Positions 1,517 through 35,719 of a DNA stretch of 64,000 nt are shown here, in pieces; positions within the stretch are counted from its first letter, which is position 1, and every line of letters begins with the position of its first letter. The stretch comes from an uncultured Pseudomonadota bacterium. Lineage in GTDB: Bacteria > Pseudomonadota > Gammaproteobacteria > Burkholderiales > JALYOK01. A program made the translations under genes and the position numbers. The notes below the pieces were generated by a model that saw only the letters and a program-made list of their open reading frames with translations, was not told where the DNA came from and did not search any database. The DNA lies in the NCBI GenBank assembly GCA_902826775.1, contig CADEHE010000002.1, forward strand, positions 124,001 to 188,000, read 5' to 3'.

Positions 1517-2509
1517 TTACTCGATCACGCCCAAGCGTCCATTGTGACTGCCAACGTACCACAATCGGCCTTGCGCATCGACGATCATTTTGCGAATGCC
1601 GGTATTGCTGGACGGCAGCCGCAACGCCTGCAATTGGCCGCTCTTCGGTTCCAGACGCACTACCGCATCGGAGGTGATCTCGTTAGCCCACACAACACCA
1701 CTACCATCGGTAGTAACCGCGTAAGCACCGCCATCGGCGCCCTCTGGGAGCGGATACTCCTTCATGATACGCATTTTTTGCGGATCGACCTGAATCAAAC
1801 GGTTGCTGCCGTAGAGCGTAGCCCAGAGACTGCCATCGACCGAGGCCGCCATGCGGCGCGGCCGCGATCCTTCGCCGGTAAATAGTTCGTTCACGTTGCC
1901 GTCGGCTGGGTTGATGCGGCCCAAACGATCACCGGCAAAATTGCAGAACCAGACGAAACCGGCGCGATCGATGGCAATGCCATGCGGGCGCCCGCCGACT
2001 TCAAACTCGCGAAAAGCACGCGTGGCAGGGTCGAAGCGAACGATGCGGCCCGGCGTCTGCACGGTAAACCACATAATGCCGGCAGCGTCCATGACCAGCG
2101 CGAGCGGATCGCCGCCCGACGGTACTTTGTACTGCATGAGCTTGCCGTTGGCGGTGTCCAGTTCGCCAATCGTGCCGCTGCCGCTACCGGCGTAGTAGAG
2201 ATGACCGTTCTTGCCGATCAACAGGCCCTGTGGACGCGTGCCTTCCGGCAAATTCCAAAGAGAGAATGTTTCGGTGCGCGGATCAAAGCGTGCGATGCGG
2301 CTGCTCTGCAATACCGAGATATAAACGCTGCCGTCCGGCGCGATGGCGGGTTCGCGCACGAAACTGCCCGCCGGCACTGCCCACTCCTTGACTTTCCCTC
2401 GAAACGGCTGCAGCGTCCCGGGTTCGATTCCGTAGTTCGATCCCCCACCCCAAGACGCGGTGCCGGCAAACCCGGCCAATAGCCCTAGCATTTTCCAACC
2501 GCTTTGCAT
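1517..2509 (-). CDS. Streptogramin (virginiamycin B) lyase-like beta-propeller protein
   Basis: About 330 residues with repeated blade motifs (PDGSVYIS, NGHLYYAG, AGIMWFT, AGFVWFCN, GVVWANE, GRLWYVG), the pattern of Vgb-type lyases and related SMP-30/NHL propellers. Vgb linearises type B streptogramins, but many homologues lack that activity, so no resistance role is claimed. A hydrophobic N-terminus (LGLLAGFAGTASWG) suggests export. An in-frame TTG lies at 2527, but the ATG at 2509 is preceded by a GGAGGGG ribosome site at good spacing and was chosen. Confidence 0.75.
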   Translation of the reverse strand: MQSGWKMLGLLAGFAGTASWGGGSNYGIEPGTLQPFRGKVKEWAVPAGSFVREPAIAPDGSVYISVLQSSRIARFDPRTETFSLWNLPEGTRPQGLLIGKNGHLYYAGSGSGTIGELDTANGKLMQYKVPSGGDPLALVMDAAGIMWFTVQTPGRIVRFDPATRAFREFEVGGRPHGIAIDRAGFVWFCNFAGDRLGRINPADGNVNELFTGEGSRPRRMAASVDGSLWATLYGSNRLIQVDPQKMRIMKEYPLPEGADGGAYAVTTDGSGVVWANEITSDAVVRLEPKSGQLQALRLPSSNTGIRKMIVDAQGRLWYVGSHNGRLGVIE

Positions 2510-2719
2510 CGCACCCCTCCGTTGCAAGCTGATTGGCGTTTGAGTTGTTCTGCCTATCGTCTTTTGCTTGTTGTTGGCAGGATTCTACTGTACGGCGCGG
2601 AAAATGCCGTAACACACTGACCAAGCGCTTGGCGAATGCAAACGCCATCGACGTTGCCGAGTGTACTGTCCCATAGGCAACGTCACATGGCCCACCTCCG
2701 GCCACGCAAAGCGGGGCAG
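2510..2719. other. Intergenic region with two palindromes
   Basis: About 210 bases between two minus-strand genes, with no convincing gene. It contains a perfect 12-base palindrome, CCAAGCGCTTGG, near 2621, and a stem with 7-base arms (GCGGGGC/GCCCCGC, 2711-2731) overlapping the stop codon of the hydrolase. The stem could slow or end transcription of the hydrolase gene, but no long T-run follows it. Confidence 0.35.
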
Positions 2720-3796
2720 CTAGCGCCCCGCCCCTTCGTTCAGAAACAATTGCACTTCGTAGAACAATTGCGCACGGTTCTTTTCCATGATGATGCTGTG
2801 CGTGCCCTCGCCGATCACCACATAGCGCTTGTAAGGCACGTTCTTGAGCAGCGGGAACAACGCCTGCGACATGTAGGCGGGCGTGTCGGCATCCCATTCC
2901 GCGTGAATCAGCAAGGTCGGCACGCGGATCTGCGCTGGGTCGTACAGCGGCTTCTCCTTCTCCCAGAAGTTGCGCACATCGGAAACCACTCCGTTGGGGG
3001 CACGCAGAATCGGCGGGCTCTCGGTTGCGCCGGCCGCATCGGTGGCCCAAGTTGCTTTCGCCCATTCATCGAACCAACCGGGCGGAATGAGCGCCGCAGC
3101 CTTGTCCTCCGGCACGCCGGCGAGCCAGCGCTTGCGCGCGGCATCAACAGTAACGGTGCGGTAGGCGCCGAGTTGCCCTGCTTGCGCCACCAGCGAAGGC
3201 GTCTTGCGCAGCCAAAGCGGTGCGTAGAGGATGAGCTTGTGCACCTTTTCGTTGTTCTTGGCGGTGTAGGCCGCCATCGTGGTCGTGCCCCACGACCAGC
3301 CCATGAGTGTCAGCTTCTCCAGTTTGCGCCGCTCGCGAATATGATCGACGACTGCCGCAATATCGCGCACCGCCACTTCCGTCGTGACGATAGGCGCATT
3401 CTCGCTGGCCGGTTGATCCATCTCGCGCGGGCGCGTGGACGCGCCGTAGCCGCGCACATCCATCAGGTAAACATCCCAGCCTTGCCGCGCGATGTAGTCC
3501 ATCCAAGATGTCCCGCCGAGCGGAAGGTCGAACGCTGTCTCTGACGGATACGTCGCGCCGTGCACGTAAAGCAGCGTGCGCTCGGCGCGAAACGCAGTCA
3601 TATCGGCCGGGCGCTTGTTGCGCACGAAGAGGCGGATGCCGGCTTCGTCTGCAGGGACGAAGAAGTCCTCCGTCGCCAGCGCGACTTCCGCCGCGCGAGC
3701 AAGCGTGCCGGCGCCGATCGCGAGCATTAGAGCGATCAAACGCAAAGTCGAAAAAGCGCGCAGGCGTGCAAAGCAAGGTGAGGCAGCATTGTTCAT
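2720..3796 (-). CDS. Secreted alpha/beta-hydrolase fold protein
   Basis: 358 residues. A hydrophobic N-terminus ending ALARAAE (about residues 18-36) looks like a signal peptide. The fold shows an oxyanion-hole segment LLYVHGAT (75-82), the nucleophile elbow GWSWG with Ser168, an acidic residue in the AEWDADTP loop (Asp302 or Asp304), and His333 in EGTHS, so a complete Ser-Asp-His triad is present. The substrate is unknown; esterase, lipase or epoxide-hydrolase-like activity are all possible. It is transcribed away from the oxidase-like gene at 3932 across 135 bases. Confidence 0.8.
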   Translation of the reverse strand: MNNAASPCFARLRAFSTLRLIALMLAIGAGTLARAAEVALATEDFFVPADEAGIRLFVRNKRPADMTAFRAERTLLYVHGATYPSETAFDLPLGGTSWMDYIARQGWDVYLMDVRGYGASTRPREMDQPASENAPIVTTEVAVRDIAAVVDHIRERRKLEKLTLMGWSWGTTTMAAYTAKNNEKVHKLILYAPLWLRKTPSLVAQAGQLGAYRTVTVDAARKRWLAGVPEDKAAALIPPGWFDEWAKATWATDAAGATESPPILRAPNGVVSDVRNFWEKEKPLYDPAQIRVPTLLIHAEWDADTPAYMSQALFPLLKNVPYKRYVVIGEGTHSIIMEKNRAQLFYEVQLFLNEGAGR

Positions 3797-3931
3797 AGCG
3801 TGGGCGTCGTTCTAGCGTAGGAAAAGGCAAGCAGTGTACGTCGCGCTACATGCGGCTGCAAAGCGCCGATTGAACCGCAGCGGCCGATCTCAGTAGAATG
3901 ACGAACTAGCCGAGAAAATCAGAACACCAAA

Positions 3932-5668
3932 ATGTCCGCTCGCTCAGCCTCACTTTGGGTGCTTGCATGCTCGCTGTGCTTGCTGCCGCCACTGGCGCAA
4001 TCCGAGGCGCCCGCGGCTCATGTCGGCGGCAAGTGGGGCACCCTGGAGAACTGGCCTCTGGTGAGCATCCACGCCGTGCTCACTCCGGGCGGCAACGTGC
4101 TCACCTACGGCACCGACGGCCTTGGTCACCAGACCGGACGCTTCATCTACGATGTGTGGGATCCGGCGCTGGGCGGCTTGAGCACCGGCCATATGACCCT
4201 GCCGAACGCCACCGGCACCGACATCTTTTGCAGCGCACAGGTGTTGCTGCCGCAAGGCGACATCTTCATCGCCGGCGGCGACAATTTCGTCGACGGCGAG
4301 ACCACCCAAACCGGCAACAGCGACGCTAATTTGTTTGCGCCGGCCGCCAACACACTGAGCCGCGCCGGCAATATGCATCGACCGCGCTGGTATGCCAGCA
4401 CCACGACCTTGCCGAACGGCGAGACCTACATTCAAGGCGGCACCGGCGGCGCCGATCATCCCGAGGTGCGTGCGAGCGACGGCAGCTTCCGTCTGCTGCC
4501 GCTCGATACCCGCGCCATCGATGCGATTTACCCGCGCAACTTCGTCGCGCCGGACGGGCGGATATTCGGCATCGACATCGCCGGCAACATGTACTTCATC
4601 GCCGCCGATCTGACGACACTGACGCCAGCGGGCAACGTCAGCGTCACCGGCGGCGGCGCCAGCGCAGCGCTTTACGCGCCGGGCAAGATCTTGCTCATCG
4701 GCGGCAACAGCGACGGCGCCGTCACGATCGACATCAACGGCCAGCAGCCGCAAGTCACCGACACCACCAAGCTCGCCTCGCGCCGCGACTTGGTGAACGC
4801 TACCGTGCTCGCGGACGGGCGTGTGCTCGCCACCGGCGGCAGCGGTGGCTGGAATCAAGCGGTGGGCATCAACAACAGCGCCGCATTATGGGATCCAGCA
4901 ACGGGGCAATGGAGCATCGGCCCGGACGGCGCCGTCGCCCGCCTCTATCACTCGATGGCGCTGCTGCTGCCGGATGCATCCGTGCTCGTCGCCGGCGGTG
5001 GCGCACCCGGCCCGTTCACCAACAGCAATGCGGAGATCTATTACCCGCCTTATCTGTTCGACGCCACCGGCGCGCTCGCCGCACGCCCGCAAATCACCGC
5101 CGCACCTGCAAGCATCGTTCCCGGCGGCAGCTTCGCTATCAGCGTGGGTGCGCAGGACACCATTGCGCGTATCAATTTGATCAAGACCGGCTCCGTCACG
5201 CACTCGTGGAATATGGACCAGCGCTCAACCGGCCTCGCTTTCACGCAAAGCGGAACTTCGATCATGCTGACAGCGCCTGCCAATTCCAACCTCATGCCAC
5301 CCGGCTACTATCTGCTGTTTGCGCTCAATAGCGAAGGCGTTCCATCCATCGCCAGGATCGTAAAAGCGGAAACGGCGCCGAGCACGCCACCGGCTCCGCC
5401 GCCGGCGCCAACGAGCGGATCGGACAATCCCCCCGCATCCGCCCCCCCGAGCAATCCATCGCCAAGCACGCCACCCGTCAACACCCCGTCGTCGAATCCG
5501 GGCGCATCTCCTCCCCCGCCCAGCACCACGCCGATCCATAGCGCCTCAGGCGCAGGCGGCGGCTGTACGCTATCGGCCAGCGGCGTTGCTGATCCAAGTT
5601 TGGTGTTGCTGATCGGGCTCGCGATTGTGGCGCTACGCAAACGCAAGAGCCACCCGGCTTCCATTTGA
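3932..5668 (+). CDS. Copper radical oxidase-like (galactose/glyoxal oxidase) kelch protein with CTERM-like sorting tail
   Basis: 578-residue exported protein: signal peptide (to about Ala25), kelch propeller, a C-terminal DUF1929-like immunoglobulin-type domain, a Pro/Ser-rich linker (about 470-540), then GGGCTL..DPSL, a hydrophobic helix and RKRK at the extreme end. All residues that build the galactose oxidase copper site have counterparts: Cys100 (IFCSAQ) and Tyr154 (RWYAS) for the Cys-Tyr cofactor, Tyr339-His340 (RLYHSM), and His424 (VTHSWN). It probably oxidises a primary alcohol or aldehyde to give hydrogen peroxide; the substrate is unknown. The tail resembles JDVT-CTERM/MYXO-CTERM-type signals, implying processing and surface attachment. 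No cognate sorting protease was seen. Confidence 0.82.
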   Translation: MSARSASLWVLACSLCLLPPLAQSEAPAAHVGGKWGTLENWPLVSIHAVLTPGGNVLTYGTDGLGHQTGRFIYDVWDPALGGLSTGHMTLPNATGTDIFCSAQVLLPQGDIFIAGGDNFVDGETTQTGNSDANLFAPAANTLSRAGNMHRPRWYASTTTLPNGETYIQGGTGGADHPEVRASDGSFRLLPLDTRAIDAIYPRNFVAPDGRIFGIDIAGNMYFIAADLTTLTPAGNVSVTGGGASAALYAPGKILLIGGNSDGAVTIDINGQQPQVTDTTKLASRRDLVNATVLADGRVLATGGSGGWNQAVGINNSAALWDPATGQWSIGPDGAVARLYHSMALLLPDASVLVAGGGAPGPFTNSNAEIYYPPYLFDATGALAARPQITAAPASIVPGGSFAISVGAQDTIARINLIKTGSVTHSWNMDQRSTGLAFTQSGTSIMLTAPANSNLMPPGYYLLFALNSEGVPSIARIVKAETAPSTPPAPPPAPTSGSDNPPASAPPSNPSPSTPPVNTPSSNPGASPPPPSTTPIHSASGAGGGCTLSASGVADPSLVLLIGLAIVALRKRKSHPASI

Positions 5669-5721
5669 GTAGTCCTGGCTTCCGACGTAGCCTCTGACCT
5701 TAGAGTTGGAGCGAACCTCGC

Positions 5722-5964
5722 ATGGCCGAGATCGCGGAAACCATGCCCGGTTACATTTCGCACAAGACCTTCAGCGCGGAAGACGGCGAGCGCTTGACGC
5801 TAGTGATGTTCGAGCACGAAGAGGCGCAGCGCGCATGGCGCATGCACCCCGAGCACGTCGAAGCGCAGAAGAAAGGCCGCAGCGATTTTTACAGCGAATA
5901 CAGCTTGCTGGTCTGCATACCGCTGCGGGAGACGAGTTTCGCAACCACTCATCAAAATCGGTAG
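5722..5964 (+). pseudogene. N-terminally truncated antibiotic-biosynthesis-monooxygenase (ABM) domain
   Basis: 80 residues matching the middle and end of small ABM/YgiN-type proteins (MPGYISHKTF, AEDGERLTLV, WRMHPEHVEAQK, DFYSEY). Family members usually have about 25 more residues with a first beta strand before the MPGY segment. Here an in-frame TAG at 5701 and the oxidase stop at 5666 leave no room for it, and no other frame in the gap encodes a matching strand. It is probably a decayed remnant, although the ATG at 5722 could still be translated. Any activity would need the missing strand for dimer formation. Confidence 0.55.
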
Positions 5965-6048
5965 GTTGGGCAGCAAGCGGCCAGTTCCAGTCATTCGCCA
6001 CGAAGAGGTGCCGACAGCAAAGCCGTCATCCGTCGCGCGCATACTCAA

Positions 6049-6459
6049 CTAGGCTACTAGAAACGGATTAACGATGCGGAGCTGCCTATCGATCACCTGA
6101 CCATGTTGCAAATCTTCTGAGTACAGCACCTTCGAACCTGCGATTAAGGCGGTAGCAACAAGCACACAGTCGTAAAACGAGAACTTATAGCGTTCGCAAA
6201 CCTCAACGCCACGGTCGTACGTATCAGCTGTCACCGCTTCCACCGCACACACCGCTCGCACAGTACCGAGGATTTCCTTGATATCGCGTAGAGGTAGCCC
6301 CACTTTGCGCAAAGCAACCGCAGTGAATTCGTTCAAGACCTGCGCGCTTATTACGCCGCGCTCTGCGAGAAGCGTTTCGACCCGGTCCGCCCGGCGGGTG
6401 TCGCTCGACAAAAGATAGAACAATACGCTCGTGTCAAAGAATGCGTCACCCGCGCTCAT
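6049..6459 (-). CDS. vapC: PIN-domain toxin (VapC-like ribonuclease)
   Basis: About 136 residues from the ATG at 6459, which follows a GAGG and overlaps the antitoxin gene by 14 bases. Starts at 6468 or 6513 are possible but leave non-family residues in front. FFDTSVLFYLLS carries the first PIN acidic residue; a middle acidic LNEFTAV segment and a late YKFSFYDCVLVATAL with Asp complete the metal-binding set. VapC proteins are Mg-dependent endoribonucleases held inactive by their antitoxin. The target RNA cannot be predicted. Confidence 0.85.
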   Translation of the reverse strand: MSAGDAFFDTSVLFYLLSSDTRRADRVETLLAERGVISAQVLNEFTAVALRKVGLPLRDIKEILGTVRAVCAVEAVTADTYDRGVEVCERYKFSFYDCVLVATALIAGSKVLYSEDLQHGQVIDRQLRIVNPFLVA

Positions 6460-6688
6460 TGGCCTCATTGGCTTCAAGCCGATCAAACCTGAACGTTGCG
6501 GGAAGTTTGCCACGATACTTGCGCAATCGTGCGAGCAGATCGCGGGCGCCGGGCGCTTTCGCTACCTGGAAAGCGCGTTTACCGGATACCTGAATCTCGA
6601 CTTGATCGCCTTCCTTGAGCCCAAGTGCCTCAACTACCGCGGCGGGCAGCCGCACGGCCAAGCTGTTGCCCCATCTTGAGACTTGCAT
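6446..6688 (-). CDS. vapB: AbrB/MazE/SpoVT-type antitoxin (VapB-like)
   Basis: 80 residues. The N-terminal half (VSRWGNSLAVRLP, LKEGDQVEIQV) is a swapped-hairpin AbrB-type DNA-binding domain; the C-terminal half (LLARLRKYRGKLPATFRFDR) is the kind of flexible segment that covers the toxin active site. It overlaps the toxin gene, so translation is probably coupled. A 25-base palindrome just upstream (6705-6729) is the likely site of autorepression. Confidence 0.83.
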   Translation of the reverse strand: MQVSRWGNSLAVRLPAAVVEALGLKEGDQVEIQVSGKRAFQVAKAPGARDLLARLRKYRGKLPATFRFDRLEANEANERG

Positions 6689-6704
6689 ATGCGCTTTTCA
6701 GTCG

Positions 6705-6729
6705 GATATACATTGAATTTAAGTATATC
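6705..6729 (-). promoter_or_regulatory. Palindromic operator/promoter of the vapBC pair
   Basis: Perfect 7-base inverted arms GATATAC and GTATATC separated by 11 AT-rich bases, ending 16 bases before the antitoxin start. On the minus strand it includes TATACT, a good -10 element, so repressor binding would block RNA polymerase. Type II antitoxins commonly bind such sites. No clear -35 was found at ideal spacing. Confidence 0.6.
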
Positions 6730-6803
6730 ACAAAGCACGCATCACAGTATCCCACAGCAGACAGTCGTGAACTTCCACTTTGGGTCGCCAGCGACGCCGC
6801 AGC

Positions 6804-7655
6804 CTACCCCTCGCTAAAACTCTGCGCCTTCGCTGCCGGCGTAAGCCCGCCCGCGTAACGCTCGCGCCACTGCGCATGGCCGTGCTGAAAGTCGTTCTTG
6901 CCGCTGCGGTCGACACCGCGCATCAGCCACAACGGTTGGTTGGCGATATTAAATGCGCTGTTGAAGGTGCGCCCTGCCACCAACGCCCGGTCGTAATGCG
7001 ACGTGGCCGGCATGTAACGCATGATGAGTGCGGCACGGCGCTTGCCGGATTTGTTGGCGGGCGAGCCGTGAATCATCTTCACGTCGTGCAACGAGATTTG
7101 CCCGGGTTCGAGGACGATATCCACCGCATCGCGCTCGTTGAATTGATCGGCGTCCAACTCGAGATTGAGCACGATGTCTTTGCGCTCGCTTTTGTGATGA
7201 CGGTACAAACCTTCGCGCTTGTGCGAGCCGGGAATGAAGCGCATACCGCCGTTCTCCGGCGTGGCTTCATCGATCGCCACCCATACGGAGCACGTCGCCA
7301 GCGGGCGCATCGGCCAGTACTCGCCATCCTGATGCCACGGCACTTCGCGCCCAGTCACGGCCGGCTTACATAGAATGCGCGAGATCCACAGAATGATGTC
7401 CGGCCCGACGATTTGTTCGATCATGTTCAATATCGGTTCATGCCGCGCCGCGCGCATGAACGGATTCGGCAAGCCGGCGGCATCGGCTGGCAGCATGTGC
7501 GGGTTGGCGAGGTCTTCCGGCGGCACGTCGGTGTAGCTGGTCAGCATTCCGTCGACGGCACGCCGCAATTCGGCGAGTAGCTCAGGCGGCAGGCGGAAGC
7601 TTGGAATGACGTAACCGTGCTCGCGGTAGTGAGCTTGTTCTTGTGCGGTAAGCAT
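6804..7655 (-). CDS. Phytanoyl-CoA dioxygenase (PhyH) family Fe(II)/2-oxoglutarate oxygenase
   Basis: 283 residues with the non-haem iron triad His108-X-Asp110 (PWHQDGEYWP) and His196 (KMIHGSPANKSGKRRA). The Arg206/Arg207 pair after the last His is positioned to bind 2-oxoglutarate. Family members hydroxylate diverse small molecules, so the substrate here is open. AGAGGG lies upstream of the ATG. The gene stands alone, between the toxin-antitoxin pair and a divergent secreted protein gene. Confidence 0.85.
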   Translation of the reverse strand: MLTAQEQAHYREHGYVIPSFRLPPELLAELRRAVDGMLTSYTDVPPEDLANPHMLPADAAGLPNPFMRAARHEPILNMIEQIVGPDIILWISRILCKPAVTGREVPWHQDGEYWPMRPLATCSVWVAIDEATPENGGMRFIPGSHKREGLYRHHKSERKDIVLNLELDADQFNERDAVDIVLEPGQISLHDVKMIHGSPANKSGKRRAALIMRYMPATSHYDRALVAGRTFNSAFNIANQPLWLMRGVDRSGKNDFQHGHAQWRERYAGGLTPAAKAQSFSEG

Positions 7656-8407: not shown

Positions 8408-8436
8408 AACGGGTATCGCGTACGCGATTACCCGTT
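8408..8436 (-). terminator. Stem-loop terminator between convergent genes
   Basis: A 13-base stem with one bulge (AACGGGTA TCGCG against CGCGA TTACCCGTT) around a two-base loop. It overlaps the hydratase alpha-like stop codon. On the minus strand it is followed about ten bases later by seven T residues, so it probably ends the three-gene hydratase transcript. Confidence 0.5.
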
Positions 8437-9057
8437 AGTCCGACCTCCAGGCAGCGCCACACCGACCATGCAGTCGCGCGTCACCAGCGCCGCAAGTTCT
8501 TGCTCGCTCATGTGCTCGGTTCCAGCCGGACGCATCGGCAGCACCAGGTAGCGCATATCGGCCGTGCTGTCGTGCACGCGCACGGTGATGTTATCCGGAA
8601 TGCGGGTGCCGAATTCCTCCAGCACCGCGCGCGGCTCGCGCACGGCGCGGCGGCGATAGGCGTGGCTCTTGTACCAGTCCGGCGGCAGGCCAAGCAGCGG
8701 GCGCGGATAACAAGAACACAGGGTACACACGATCAAGTTGTGCACCTCGGGGGTGTTTTCCACCACCACCAAGCGCATCGGCTTGACTTCCAAGCCGAGT
8801 TCTTCGCACGCGGCCGAACCGTCGGCGAGCAAGCGCGCTTTGTAATCTGGATCGACCCAAGCGCGTGCCACGACTTGCGCCCCGCGCGCGGGCGTGCGCG
8901 CATCCATGTCTTCGATCTGGCGGCGCACTTCATCGGCGCTGAGCACTCCTTTTTCGAGGAGCAGTTCGCGCACCGCGACCTCCATCGCTTGGTAGTAGCT
9001 CAAGTGATCGTCGCTATCGGGCGCATGCTCATGCGGGCGGTGATGGTCGTCGGACAT
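8428..9057 (-). CDS. Cobalt-type nitrile hydratase alpha subunit / thiocyanate hydrolase gamma subunit
   Basis: 209 residues. The metal claw VCTLCSC supplies Cys111, Cys114, Ser115 and Cys116; Thr between the first two Cys marks the cobalt rather than the iron type. It is followed by YPRPLLGLPPDWYKS and REPRAVLEEFG, core features of the family. In active enzymes the two later Cys are oxidised and cobalt is bound by backbone amides, giving hydration of nitriles or hydrolysis of thiocyanate. It is the third gene of a tight minus-strand operon whose first two genes are the two halves of a beta subunit, the layout of scnB-scnA-scnC in thiocyanate hydrolase. Confidence 0.88.
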   Translation of the reverse strand: MSDDHHRPHEHAPDSDDHLSYYQAMEVAVRELLLEKGVLSADEVRRQIEDMDARTPARGAQVVARAWVDPDYKARLLADGSAACEELGLEVKPMRLVVVENTPEVHNLIVCTLCSCYPRPLLGLPPDWYKSHAYRRRAVREPRAVLEEFGTRIPDNITVRVHDSTADMRYLVLPMRPAGTEHMSEQELAALVTRDCMVGVALPGGRTNG

Positions 9058-9072
9058 CCGCGGTATCTCTCC

Positions 9073-9369
9073 CTAAGCTGGTTCGAGCCAGTGCTGATAA
9101 ATCTCGATATCCACCGTATCTTGGATCTTGCCTTGGTAGTCGGGCCACACGGTGTTCTGCGCGAAGCGCACGCGATATAGCGGCAGACGCGGCGTGTCCA
9201 TGCGCGCGTAGGCAAGTTCTTCCGGATTGCGGAACGAGCCGCAGACACGCTCGATTTCGCCAACGCAGCCGCGAATGTAGTACGGCGTGCGCACGTGGCC
9301 AATCGGATACCCGCGGCGCACGACCACGCGGTCGCCAGGCTTAAAGCACGCCGCGCTATGCTCGTCCAT
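9073..9369 (-). CDS. Nitrile hydratase beta C-terminal domain / thiocyanate hydrolase alpha subunit
   Basis: 98 residues with FKPGDRVVVR, GHVRTPYYIRGCVGEIERVCG and PLYRVRF, the SH3-like C-terminal half of nitrile hydratase beta. The Arg in GHVRTP corresponds to one of the conserved Arg residues that contact the oxidised Cys of the metal site. The start ATG at 9369 shares one base with the upstream TAA (TAATG), a sign of coupled translation. A longer in-frame extension to 9477 would overlap the previous gene by over 100 bases and was rejected. Confidence 0.85.
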   Translation of the reverse strand: MDEHSAACFKPGDRVVVRRGYPIGHVRTPYYIRGCVGEIERVCGSFRNPEELAYARMDTPRLPLYRVRFAQNTVWPDYQGKIQDTVDIEIYQHWLEPA

Positions 9370-9695
9370 TAGCAGTGATCCTCCTCGCGCGCTTGCACCG
9401 CAGCGATCTTGCGGCCGAGTTCGTCGATGCTGATCACGCCGCGCTGGATCAGCGTATGCGCGATGGAATGAATCCAACGCTCGTAGTAGCTCATCTTGTC
9501 GTAAGCATCCGGGCCGATCGATTCGATGTTCTTGCGCAGCTCGTCGACCGTCATGAGCGGGGCCGGTTTACGATTAGCCAATAGCACCAGCAGCGCGTCG
9601 ACGCGCTTTTCCCAGGGCGCGTAATCGTGCTCGCTCGGCTTGACCGGCTCGGCGGGCAAGCCCCCCATGTCGTGATGCGAGCGAAAGTTGCTCAT
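9369..9695 (-). CDS. Nitrile hydratase beta N-terminal domain / thiocyanate hydrolase beta subunit
   Basis: 108 residues from the ATG at 9695. HHDMGGLPAEPV, PWEKRVDAL and MSYYERWIHS match the helical N-terminal half of nitrile hydratase beta; Arg in YYERW is the other Arg expected near the metal centre. Accessory/activator proteins share this fold, but HDMGG favours a true subunit. It is shorter than the well-studied ScnB (about 157 residues). It is first in the operon, 100 bases from the end of the tetR gene. Confidence 0.82.
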   Translation of the reverse strand: MSNFRSHHDMGGLPAEPVKPSEHDYAPWEKRVDALLVLLANRKPAPLMTVDELRKNIESIGPDAYDKMSYYERWIHSIAHTLIQRGVISIDELGRKIAAVQAREEDHC

Positions 9696-9798
9696 TGTGT
9701 CTATACCTAGCCCAGAACAAACCTGTGACAAAGATCACAAGCGCCCTTCACAGATATGGGGGCACCAGTACCTGGCTGCGACGCTGCTGCGAGTAAGT

Positions 9799-34873: not shown

Positions 34874-35719
34874 TCAGACTCGCGCGAAATAGGGTGCCGC
34901 AAATACGGCCGCGGCGGCCACCGGCAGCGTGGCGGTCAAGGCGTCGATACGATCCAACACACCGCCGTGGCCGGGCAATAGGCTGCCGCTGTCTTTGAGG
35001 CCCACTTGACGCTTCATCCACGATTCGAACAGATCGCCGATGATGCTCGCAACCGTGAGCGGCGCTCCCAACACAACGACTACGAACAAGGGCAGCGGCA
35101 ACTGCTCCCCGAAATTGCGGGTAGCAATCACCGCCAGCACCGCGAGCATCAAATAGATCGCGACTCCGGCGAAGCCGCCCAGCACACCCTCCCAAGTCTT
35201 GCCGGGACTGATGGCAGGCGCCAGCTTATGCTTGCCGTAACGGCGCCCCACGAAATAAGCCACGCTATCGGCCACCCACACCAGCGCCATGACTAACAAC
35301 AACGTATACGGGCTCAGCTCGCGCAACGCGACCATCGCCAACCAAGTCGGCACCAACACCAATATCCCCGTCGCCGCCACCAGTGCGCGCTGCTGCGGTG
35401 CCCAGCCAAATAGCAGCCAAGCCGGTGCCGCGGTAAACCAAAACAGCGCCGCCAAGGTGAACCACGGCAGCCAAACTTGGCCGACGGAAACATCATCCTG
35501 CGCCGTGGCATACGCCAGCAGGGCAGTGGCGATAACGCCGATCAGGGCCACGTAGGCGACGCGCAAGATGGTCTGCAAGCGCGCGAACGAAGACCATTCC
35601 CAAGCCGCATACAACAATATTCCGAGGGTCAGCATGCGCCACAAGCGCGGCGTCGCGAATAGCAATGCGCCGGCAAACAGTGCAAGCAATATAGCGGCGG
35701 TAACGATGCGCGTTTTCAA
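34874..35719 (-). CDS. cdsA: Phosphatidate cytidylyltransferase
   Basis: About 281 residues, eight or so membrane helices. The C-terminal signature KRQVGLKDSGSLLPGHGGVLDRIDAL and the DSVAYFVGRRYGKHKLAPAISPGKTWEG block are diagnostic. It forms CDP-diacylglycerol for phospholipid synthesis. The start is uncertain: the frame is open upstream into uppS, but the TTG at 35719 (giving MKTRIVTAAIL) matches the family N-terminus and avoids a 128-base overlap. Confidence 0.9.
   Translation of the reverse strand: MKTRIVTAAILLALFAGALLFATPRLWRMLTLGILLYAAWEWSSFARLQTILRVAYVALIGVIATALLAYATAQDDVSVGQVWLPWFTLAALFWFTAAPAWLLFGWAPQQRALVAATGILVLVPTWLAMVALRELSPYTLLLVMALVWVADSVAYFVGRRYGKHKLAPAISPGKTWEGVLGGFAGVAIYLMLAVLAVIATRNFGEQLPLPLFVVVVLGAPLTVASIIGDLFESWMKRQVGLKDSGSLLPGHGGVLDRIDALTATLPVAAAAVFAAPYFARV

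Follow-up and report, generated by a model that had tools for sequence, protein, structure and literature searches.

A predicted copper radical oxidase with a JDVT-CTERM tail in a Burkholderiales bacterium whose sorting protease gene lies among type II secretion genes

Where in the cell would a bacterial copper radical oxidase act if its chain ends in a protein-sorting tail, and on what kind of substrate? The question is raised by a 64,000-nucleotide stretch of DNA (hereafter the window; positions 124,001 to 188,000 of contig CADEHE010000002.1, assembly GCA_902826775.1) from an uncultured Pseudomonadota bacterium of the order Burkholderiales. Matches of its 16S gene on plasmids, together with signature letters, place the genome no more closely than Burkholderiales in the broad sense. 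A complete open reading frame (ORF) on its forward strand (3932–5668), with an ATG start and its own stop codon, encodes a 578-residue protein (P0001) that comprises, from N- to C-terminus, a signal peptide, a catalytic domain of the galactose/glyoxal-oxidase type, a proline-rich linker and a JDVT-CTERM tail. This description draws on the ORF, profile matches, a search of the PDB, an AlphaFold model and its superposition on solved structures. The union of oxidase and JDVT-CTERM is a well-supported new combination of two parts that are each known singly. We think it probable, if well short of certain, that the finished product is a lipid-anchored, surface-displayed, peroxide-producing copper radical oxidase.

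The catalytic module (residues 29–480; 4016–5371) matches two Pfam families, GO-like_E_set (87.3 bits, cut-off 25) and Glyoxal_oxid_N (42.7 bits, cut-off 37.5). The top phmmer match in the PDB is a bacterial galactose oxidase (E 1.1e-52), and a profile built from 29 relatives retrieves solved copper radical oxidases, reaching the fungal glyoxal oxidase 9n3u at E 5.8e-51; this profile and the underlying 29-sequence alignment, A1, were built with 28 of the 49 related loci. The original prediction had claimed counterparts for all metal and cofactor residues of galactose oxidase, and it named the right five: Cys100 (4229–4231), the expected thioether partner in the Cys-Tyr cofactor; Tyr154; the axial Tyr339 with the copper ligand His340 (4946–4951); and the second copper ligand, His424 (5201–5203). 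From the galactose oxidase numbering and the alignment to the PDB match, we take these to correspond to residues 228, 272, 495, 496 and 581 of galactose oxidase. All five are invariant in A1. Across a broader comparison of 60 rows (a few are duplicates, truncated ORFs or plain kelch proteins), 53 retain Cys100, 54 Tyr154, 57 Tyr339, 56 His340 and 53 His424.

The AlphaFold model has a mean pLDDT of 81.8, with values mostly above 90 over residues 31–480 and below 50 in residues 1–27 and 495–578. Copper radical oxidases top the ranking from Foldseek and VIA-align (Z 42.5–52.1), and other propellers follow at Z 23.4 and below. The closest match by VIA-align is the bacterial galactose oxidase 9g43 (Z 52.1, rmsd 1.8, 433 aligned residues), followed by 1gof (Z 49.1), the bacterial copper radical oxidase GlxA of Streptomyces lividans (4unm; Z 46.4) and 9n3u (Z 42.5). 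Superposition on these solved members points to the seven-bladed kelch propeller and C-terminal Ig-like/Early-set domain of the class. For copper-site geometry, a further check proposed with the original prediction, the conserved site residues and this superposition give an indirect test. By its site residues and predicted fold, the protein is an AA5-like copper radical oxidase. It is not classed as a GlxA equivalog, because its score on that model (NF052501) is 165.9 bits, under the cut-off of 800. AA5 biochemistry provides the analogy by which the enzyme would produce peroxide, and it also guides our view of the probable substrate.

In galactose oxidase, Trp290 stacks on the cofactor. The corresponding loop of the window oxidase, GGTGGADHPEV, has no aromatic residue of this AA5_2 type, as opposed to GGSWSGG in two relatives (L002 and L016). 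What it does possess is the second-shell Trp of AA5_1 type, directly before the cofactor Tyr (Trp153-Tyr154; 4388–4393). This is a single sequence feature, seen in the alignments: Arg152-Trp153-Tyr154 is invariant among the 29 sequences of A1, and Trp at position 153 is common to 52 of the 60 rows. The fungal aldehyde oxidase FgrAldOx (9n3u) has the same arrangement: according to its description (PMC13094651), the Trp is contributed by W509, directly before cofactor Y510, and its indole is flipped. Together, the Trp153-Tyr154 pair and the aromatic-free loop moderately favour an aldehyde-type substrate, of the glyoxal/methylglyoxal type. The preference is only moderate because overall identity is higher with galactose oxidase 9g43 (36%) than with FgrAldOx (25% over the aligned core), which weakens the aldehyde reading. 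FgrAldOx also differs in having an N-terminal WSC domain (PMC13094651). As for the fungal AA5_1 clade itself, Glyoxal_oxid_N scores above its cut-off, yet identity to 9n3u is only 25%.

The strongest competing interpretation is an enzyme of the galactose-oxidase type that would oxidise alcohols or carbohydrates, with galactosyl or other glycan termini on the cell surface as its targets. We rate it appreciably below an even chance. The best match in both sequence and fold, the galactose oxidase of Pseudoarthrobacter siccitolerans (9g43/9g8h), shares the propeller, the Early-set domain and the five copper and cofactor residues. Unlike the window oxidase, with its Trp and short GGTGGADH loop, that enzyme has a Gly preceding the cofactor Tyr, and its loop reads GGSWSGG; its aligned part stops near the chain end, with no comparable tail seen. 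Moreover, the Arg of the FRSDNHAW stretch in 9g8h, which we take to be the substrate-binding R330 of galactose oxidase, faces Ala206 in the window oxidase, in a stretch that is loosely aligned. The Glyoxal_oxid_N match likewise counts against a galactose-type enzyme. Of the earlier link to galactose oxidase the copper-site residues stand, and the label itself is too specific.

We turn to the tail (residues 540–578; 5549–5665), which reads GAGGGC(545)TLSASGVADPSLVLLIGLAIVALRKRKSHPASI and is made up of a Gly-rich signature with Cys545 (codon 5564–5566), a helix at residues 556–567, modelled at low confidence, and a basic RKRK end. The prediction of a JDVT-CTERM-like terminus is borne out by a match to NF033191 at residues 542–568 of the full protein (28.0 bits, cut-off 27; E 1.5e-6); the same tail scores 29.8 bits when the last 150 residues are searched alone and 31.7 bits in a six-frame search of the genome. 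PTPA-CTERM was rejected (16.1 bits against a cut-off of 29), as was MYXO-CTERM, which is absent from NCBIfam matches up to E 10. Five JDVT-CTERM matches exceed the cut-off in the six-frame search of the source genome: a GloVer repeat protein, the window oxidase, an RCC1-like repeat protein, an Ig-like repeat protein and an S8-type protease (the last three names derive partly from our reading of the sequences). By eye, the five tails are alike: a Gly-rich stretch, a Cys, a hydrophobic stretch and a basic end.

The genome also has the matching glutamic-type sorting protease that had been proposed as a check on the tail. MrtJ (NF033192) is found at 35281–35571 of contig C6 with 114 bits in the genome search (cut-off 75; 112.2 as a protein), and its translation retains the EE, H and HxxxN residues. 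It is the only MrtJ above the cut-off; a second match, on contig C17, falls below it (38.5). A survey of 399 order genomes finds MrtJ in at least 16 (E 1e-15; 15 of them over the cut-off), JDVT-CTERM likewise in at least 16 (E 1e-4; 15 over the cut-off), and the two together in at least 13 (Fisher p 3.6e-19, with relatedness ignored). These survey counts are lower bounds, as only part of the candidates were scored in each genome: up to 12–13 for MrtJ, 18 for JDVT-CTERM and three for the oxidase. With its five, the source genome has the most tagged proteins among those listed, the counts for other genomes again being minimum values.

Could the tail be a mere C-terminal membrane anchor, leaving an unprocessed oxidase attached to the inner membrane on its periplasmic side? 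The predicted 12-residue helix and basic end, at low confidence in the model, would suit such a role; the JDVT-CTERM score of the oxidase is only 1 bit over the cut-off; and the oxidase gene is unlinked to mrtJ, being on contig C2 rather than C6. The last two points also weigh against the sorted, surface-displayed oxidase that we prefer. Nevertheless, we regard a simple anchor as unlikely. The same Gly-rich, Cys, hydrophobic and basic pattern closes five proteins of this genome, and the tag co-occurs with MrtJ across the 399 genomes. Furthermore, Cys545 is kept in a mature protein with just a single Cys besides: outside the signal peptide, which contains two more, Cys100 and Cys545 are the sole cysteines.

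Another key observation concerns the position of mrtJ, which lies among genes of the type II secretion system (T2SS). On one strand the order is gspD, gspE, gspF, the tagged S8-type protease, mrtJ, gspG, gspH, two pseudopilin-like ORFs, gspK, gspL, gspM and gspN (gspD and gspG score above NCBIfam cut-offs; the other gsp names follow from gene order and reading). This linkage of a sorting protease gene to T2SS genes was unexpected. We examined 16 of the 17 mrtJ matches of the order, G153 being left out, and five of the 16 neighbourhoods have mrtJ in the slot between gspF and gspG. They span three families: the source genome, three genomes of a single genus (G014, G242 and G272; family f15) and G027 (f28). 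For a second MrtJ match in G263 (L121), comparison with the mrtJ of the source genome yielded 21 bits, and no match at E 1e-6. In G025 (f26), a tagged protein akin to the S8-type protease (263 bits) directly precedes gspG. In seven clusters (G021, G031, G032, G077, G151, G158 and G388), gspF adjoins gspG without an insert, the two genes overlapping or lying less than 50 bases apart; in the remaining loci surveyed, mrtJ loci apart, either gspF comes after gspG or gspG was seen without an adjacent gspF. The placement of mrtJ between gspF and gspG gives a genetic reason to think that JDVT-CTERM sorting feeds the T2SS in these bacteria. In the literature searched, this step rests on analogy with MYXO-CTERM; the placement itself may have been described earlier.

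The gene, the predicted fold, the catalytic residues, the tag, the cognate protease gene and its physical linkage to T2SS genes are directly supported, and they lead us to hypothesize the following sequence of events. Sec would export the oxidase; copper would be bound in the periplasm, and the Cys100-Tyr154 radical cofactor would form by itself. The JDVT-CTERM helix would retain the protein in the inner membrane, where Cys545 would then probably be lipidated, and MrtJ, a glutamic-type intramembrane protease, would cut off the helix together with the basic tail. In its folded, lipid-anchored form the oxidase might then be handed to the T2SS for display on the outer surface, a destination suggested by the tag, MrtJ and the T2SS context; there, a small aldehyde or primary alcohol would be oxidised with O2 and H2O2 released.

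Lipidation, cleavage and hand-over to the T2SS are modelled on work with MYXO-CTERM and its myxosortase MrtX in Myxococcus (PMC11980579), a system that offers a Cys signature, a helix, a basic tail, a CPBP protease and T2SS export. It is an imperfect precedent: the window oxidase has no MYXO-CTERM match, MrtJ of the source genome scores 51.9 bits on the MrtX model (cut-off 180), and, in that account, lipidation and the acyltransferase are themselves unproven. As in the JDVT-CTERM/MrtJ system, which is known yet little studied, tag and protease are both above cut-off in this genome. PMC11980579 describes a neighbourhood of MrtJ with a single JDVT-CTERM protein; the source genome differs, in that one MrtJ would serve five tagged proteins, of which four have genes unlinked to mrtJ, and that gene itself is surrounded by T2SS genes.

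More broadly, we suggest, tentatively and with slightly less than even confidence, that JDVT-CTERM/MrtJ is a built-in part of the T2SS in some betaproteobacteria, making selected clients lipid-anchored surface proteins, and that a copper radical oxidase has been recruited as a fixed surface source of peroxide, beside a second oxidase in the same cell that is fused to a peroxidase and lipidated at its N-terminus.

Several further observations weigh against the sorted, lipid-anchored and surface-displayed oxidase. Three of the other four tagged proteins fall below the JDVT-CTERM cut-off when scored as a protein or fragment (25.5, 23.7 and 24.1 bits), and exceed it in the genome search. Linkage of mrtJ to T2SS genes is absent from 11 of the 16 order neighbourhoods, some of which are on short contigs. 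Elsewhere in the class, T2SS genes were found near mrtJ in none of 53 neighbourhoods, many of them on short contigs and all scanned with queries from the source genome alone, with no positive control there; a general mrtJ–T2SS linkage across the class was rejected on this sample. Gaps between gspF and gspG that do not hold mrtJ also occur: approximately 420 bases in G020 (L158) and G033 (L138), and 225 bases in G119. G014 has mrtJ in the slot yet no JDVT-CTERM match among the 18 candidates scored. Finally, T2SSG is found in 15 of 16 MrtJ genomes versus 20 of 31 genomes without MrtJ or tag, a weak difference (p 0.037) against a comparison group that is the first 31 of a list and non-random. As observations in their own right, the two gaps of about 420 bases leave room for a small gene other than mrtJ, and a tag-like ORF, identified by a rough pattern and counted by hand with two nonsense matches dropped, is beside mrtJ in ten of the 53 class neighbourhoods and elsewhere in the neighbourhood in seven more.

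A catalytically dead kelch adhesin that merely retains the fold is very improbable: kelch relatives without copper residues do exist (L063 and L065–L067), and the other four tagged proteins of the genome include repeat or Ig-like proteins, but the five copper and cofactor residues and the Trp before Tyr154 are invariant in the 29 aligned relatives, and the AA5 fold is predicted with confidence.

How uncommon, then, is the tagged oxidase? We found 49 related loci in genome contigs, the best at approximately 52–53% identity, and oxidase matches (E ≤ 1e-20) in at least 18 of the 399 order genomes, the source genome included. Among 72 complete C-termini scanned against NCBIfam (E up to 1), that of the window oxidase alone matches JDVT-CTERM: none of the 71 others does so among the families listed, the best 25 of 64 ordered by member count and then E-value, and JDVT-CTERM is absent from families with two or more members. 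Bearing in mind these figures, the earlier description of a surface oxidase as unusual for its group was a fair one. Neither did we meet the combination in the literature searched, in which 'galactose oxidase' together with 'CTERM' was not found. Ten C-termini that run past the end of the retrieved sequence were left out (L013, L016, L021, L042, L045, L060, L159, L170, L172 and L178). One of these, L013, is the oxidase of G025, a genome that also has tagged proteins; another, L016, appears at full length in L126, with PA14 at its end.

The relatives' C-terminal parts are otherwise dockerin, PA14, lectin-like or di-haem cytochrome domains, or the chain ends after the Early-set domain. Several relatives carry instead a lipobox-like N-terminus (by pattern only), so envelope anchoring among them may not be rare. 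A kelch protein from an Archangium metagenome-assembled genome (L065) has a Cys-hydrophobic-basic end; it was rejected as a CTERM-tagged relative, as it is without copper residues and matches no CTERM model. Family f16 (L163–L167 and L174–L177) has short oxidases, with open frames of 519–577 residues and up to three matches per genome, which stop at the Early-set domain and show no tail. Two copper-radical-oxidase-like ORFs stand in tandem in one record, L040 (2462–5674 and 5872–7383, both on the forward strand).

The source genome encodes a second copper radical oxidase of 1697 residues (L126, 9056–14149 on the forward strand; contig C8 of G000). It has a lipobox-like LISC motif, a site of the galactose-oxidase type (RGYQ, GGSWSGG), Ig, PKD and PA14 domains, a Vgb-like propeller (below cut-off) and a CCP_MauG di-haem peroxidase part; because oxidase and CCP_MauG are fused, a peroxide maker would here be joined to a likely peroxide user. 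Four relatives (L019, L020, L024 and L039) are likewise fused to CCP_MauG di-haem cytochrome domains, and L022, L058 and L061 have two CxxCH motifs each. Among the titles listed by a literature search, none concerns such a fusion.

Among the remaining features of the window oxidase gene, a candidate sigma-70-like promoter (TTGAAC-18-TAGAAT; 3870–3899, forward strand) lies 32 bases 5′ of the start codon; it is a consensus match only, with one such pattern in 3600–6100 versus 0.4 expected from shuffles. The putative Sec signal peptide (residues 1–24; 3932–4003), read by eye from the translation, would be cleaved near LAQS/EA. It matches no lipobox pattern, and an N-terminal lipid is judged unlikely because its two cysteines sit in a short hydrophobic stretch. 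The Pro/Ser-rich linker (residues 481–539; 5372–5548) is mostly of low confidence in the model. No Rfam match was found within 3000–7000. We also considered horizontal gain: the GC content of the gene is 0.653, versus 0.613 for the window, and its third-position GC content (0.781) gives no signal of such a gain, because it lies inside the range of six other window genes (0.691–0.81).

The neighbours of the oxidase gene encode an SBF-type transporter, a DJC28-domain protein, a Vgb-type propeller, an alpha/beta hydrolase, a PIN protein and a PhyH oxygenase, among which we saw no operon partner with an obvious functional link. The propeller gene (1517–2527, reverse strand) is of the Virginiamycin-B-lyase type, and a weakly similar propeller is a domain in several oxidase relatives, possibly by coincidence. 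Farther along the window (8428–9731, reverse strand) are a nitrile hydratase alpha chain (281 bits) and an adjoining ORF for the beta-subunit C-terminus, with a TetR gene close by; two ORFs (9073–9477, the one that was profile-scanned, and 9369–9731) may together make up the beta subunit.
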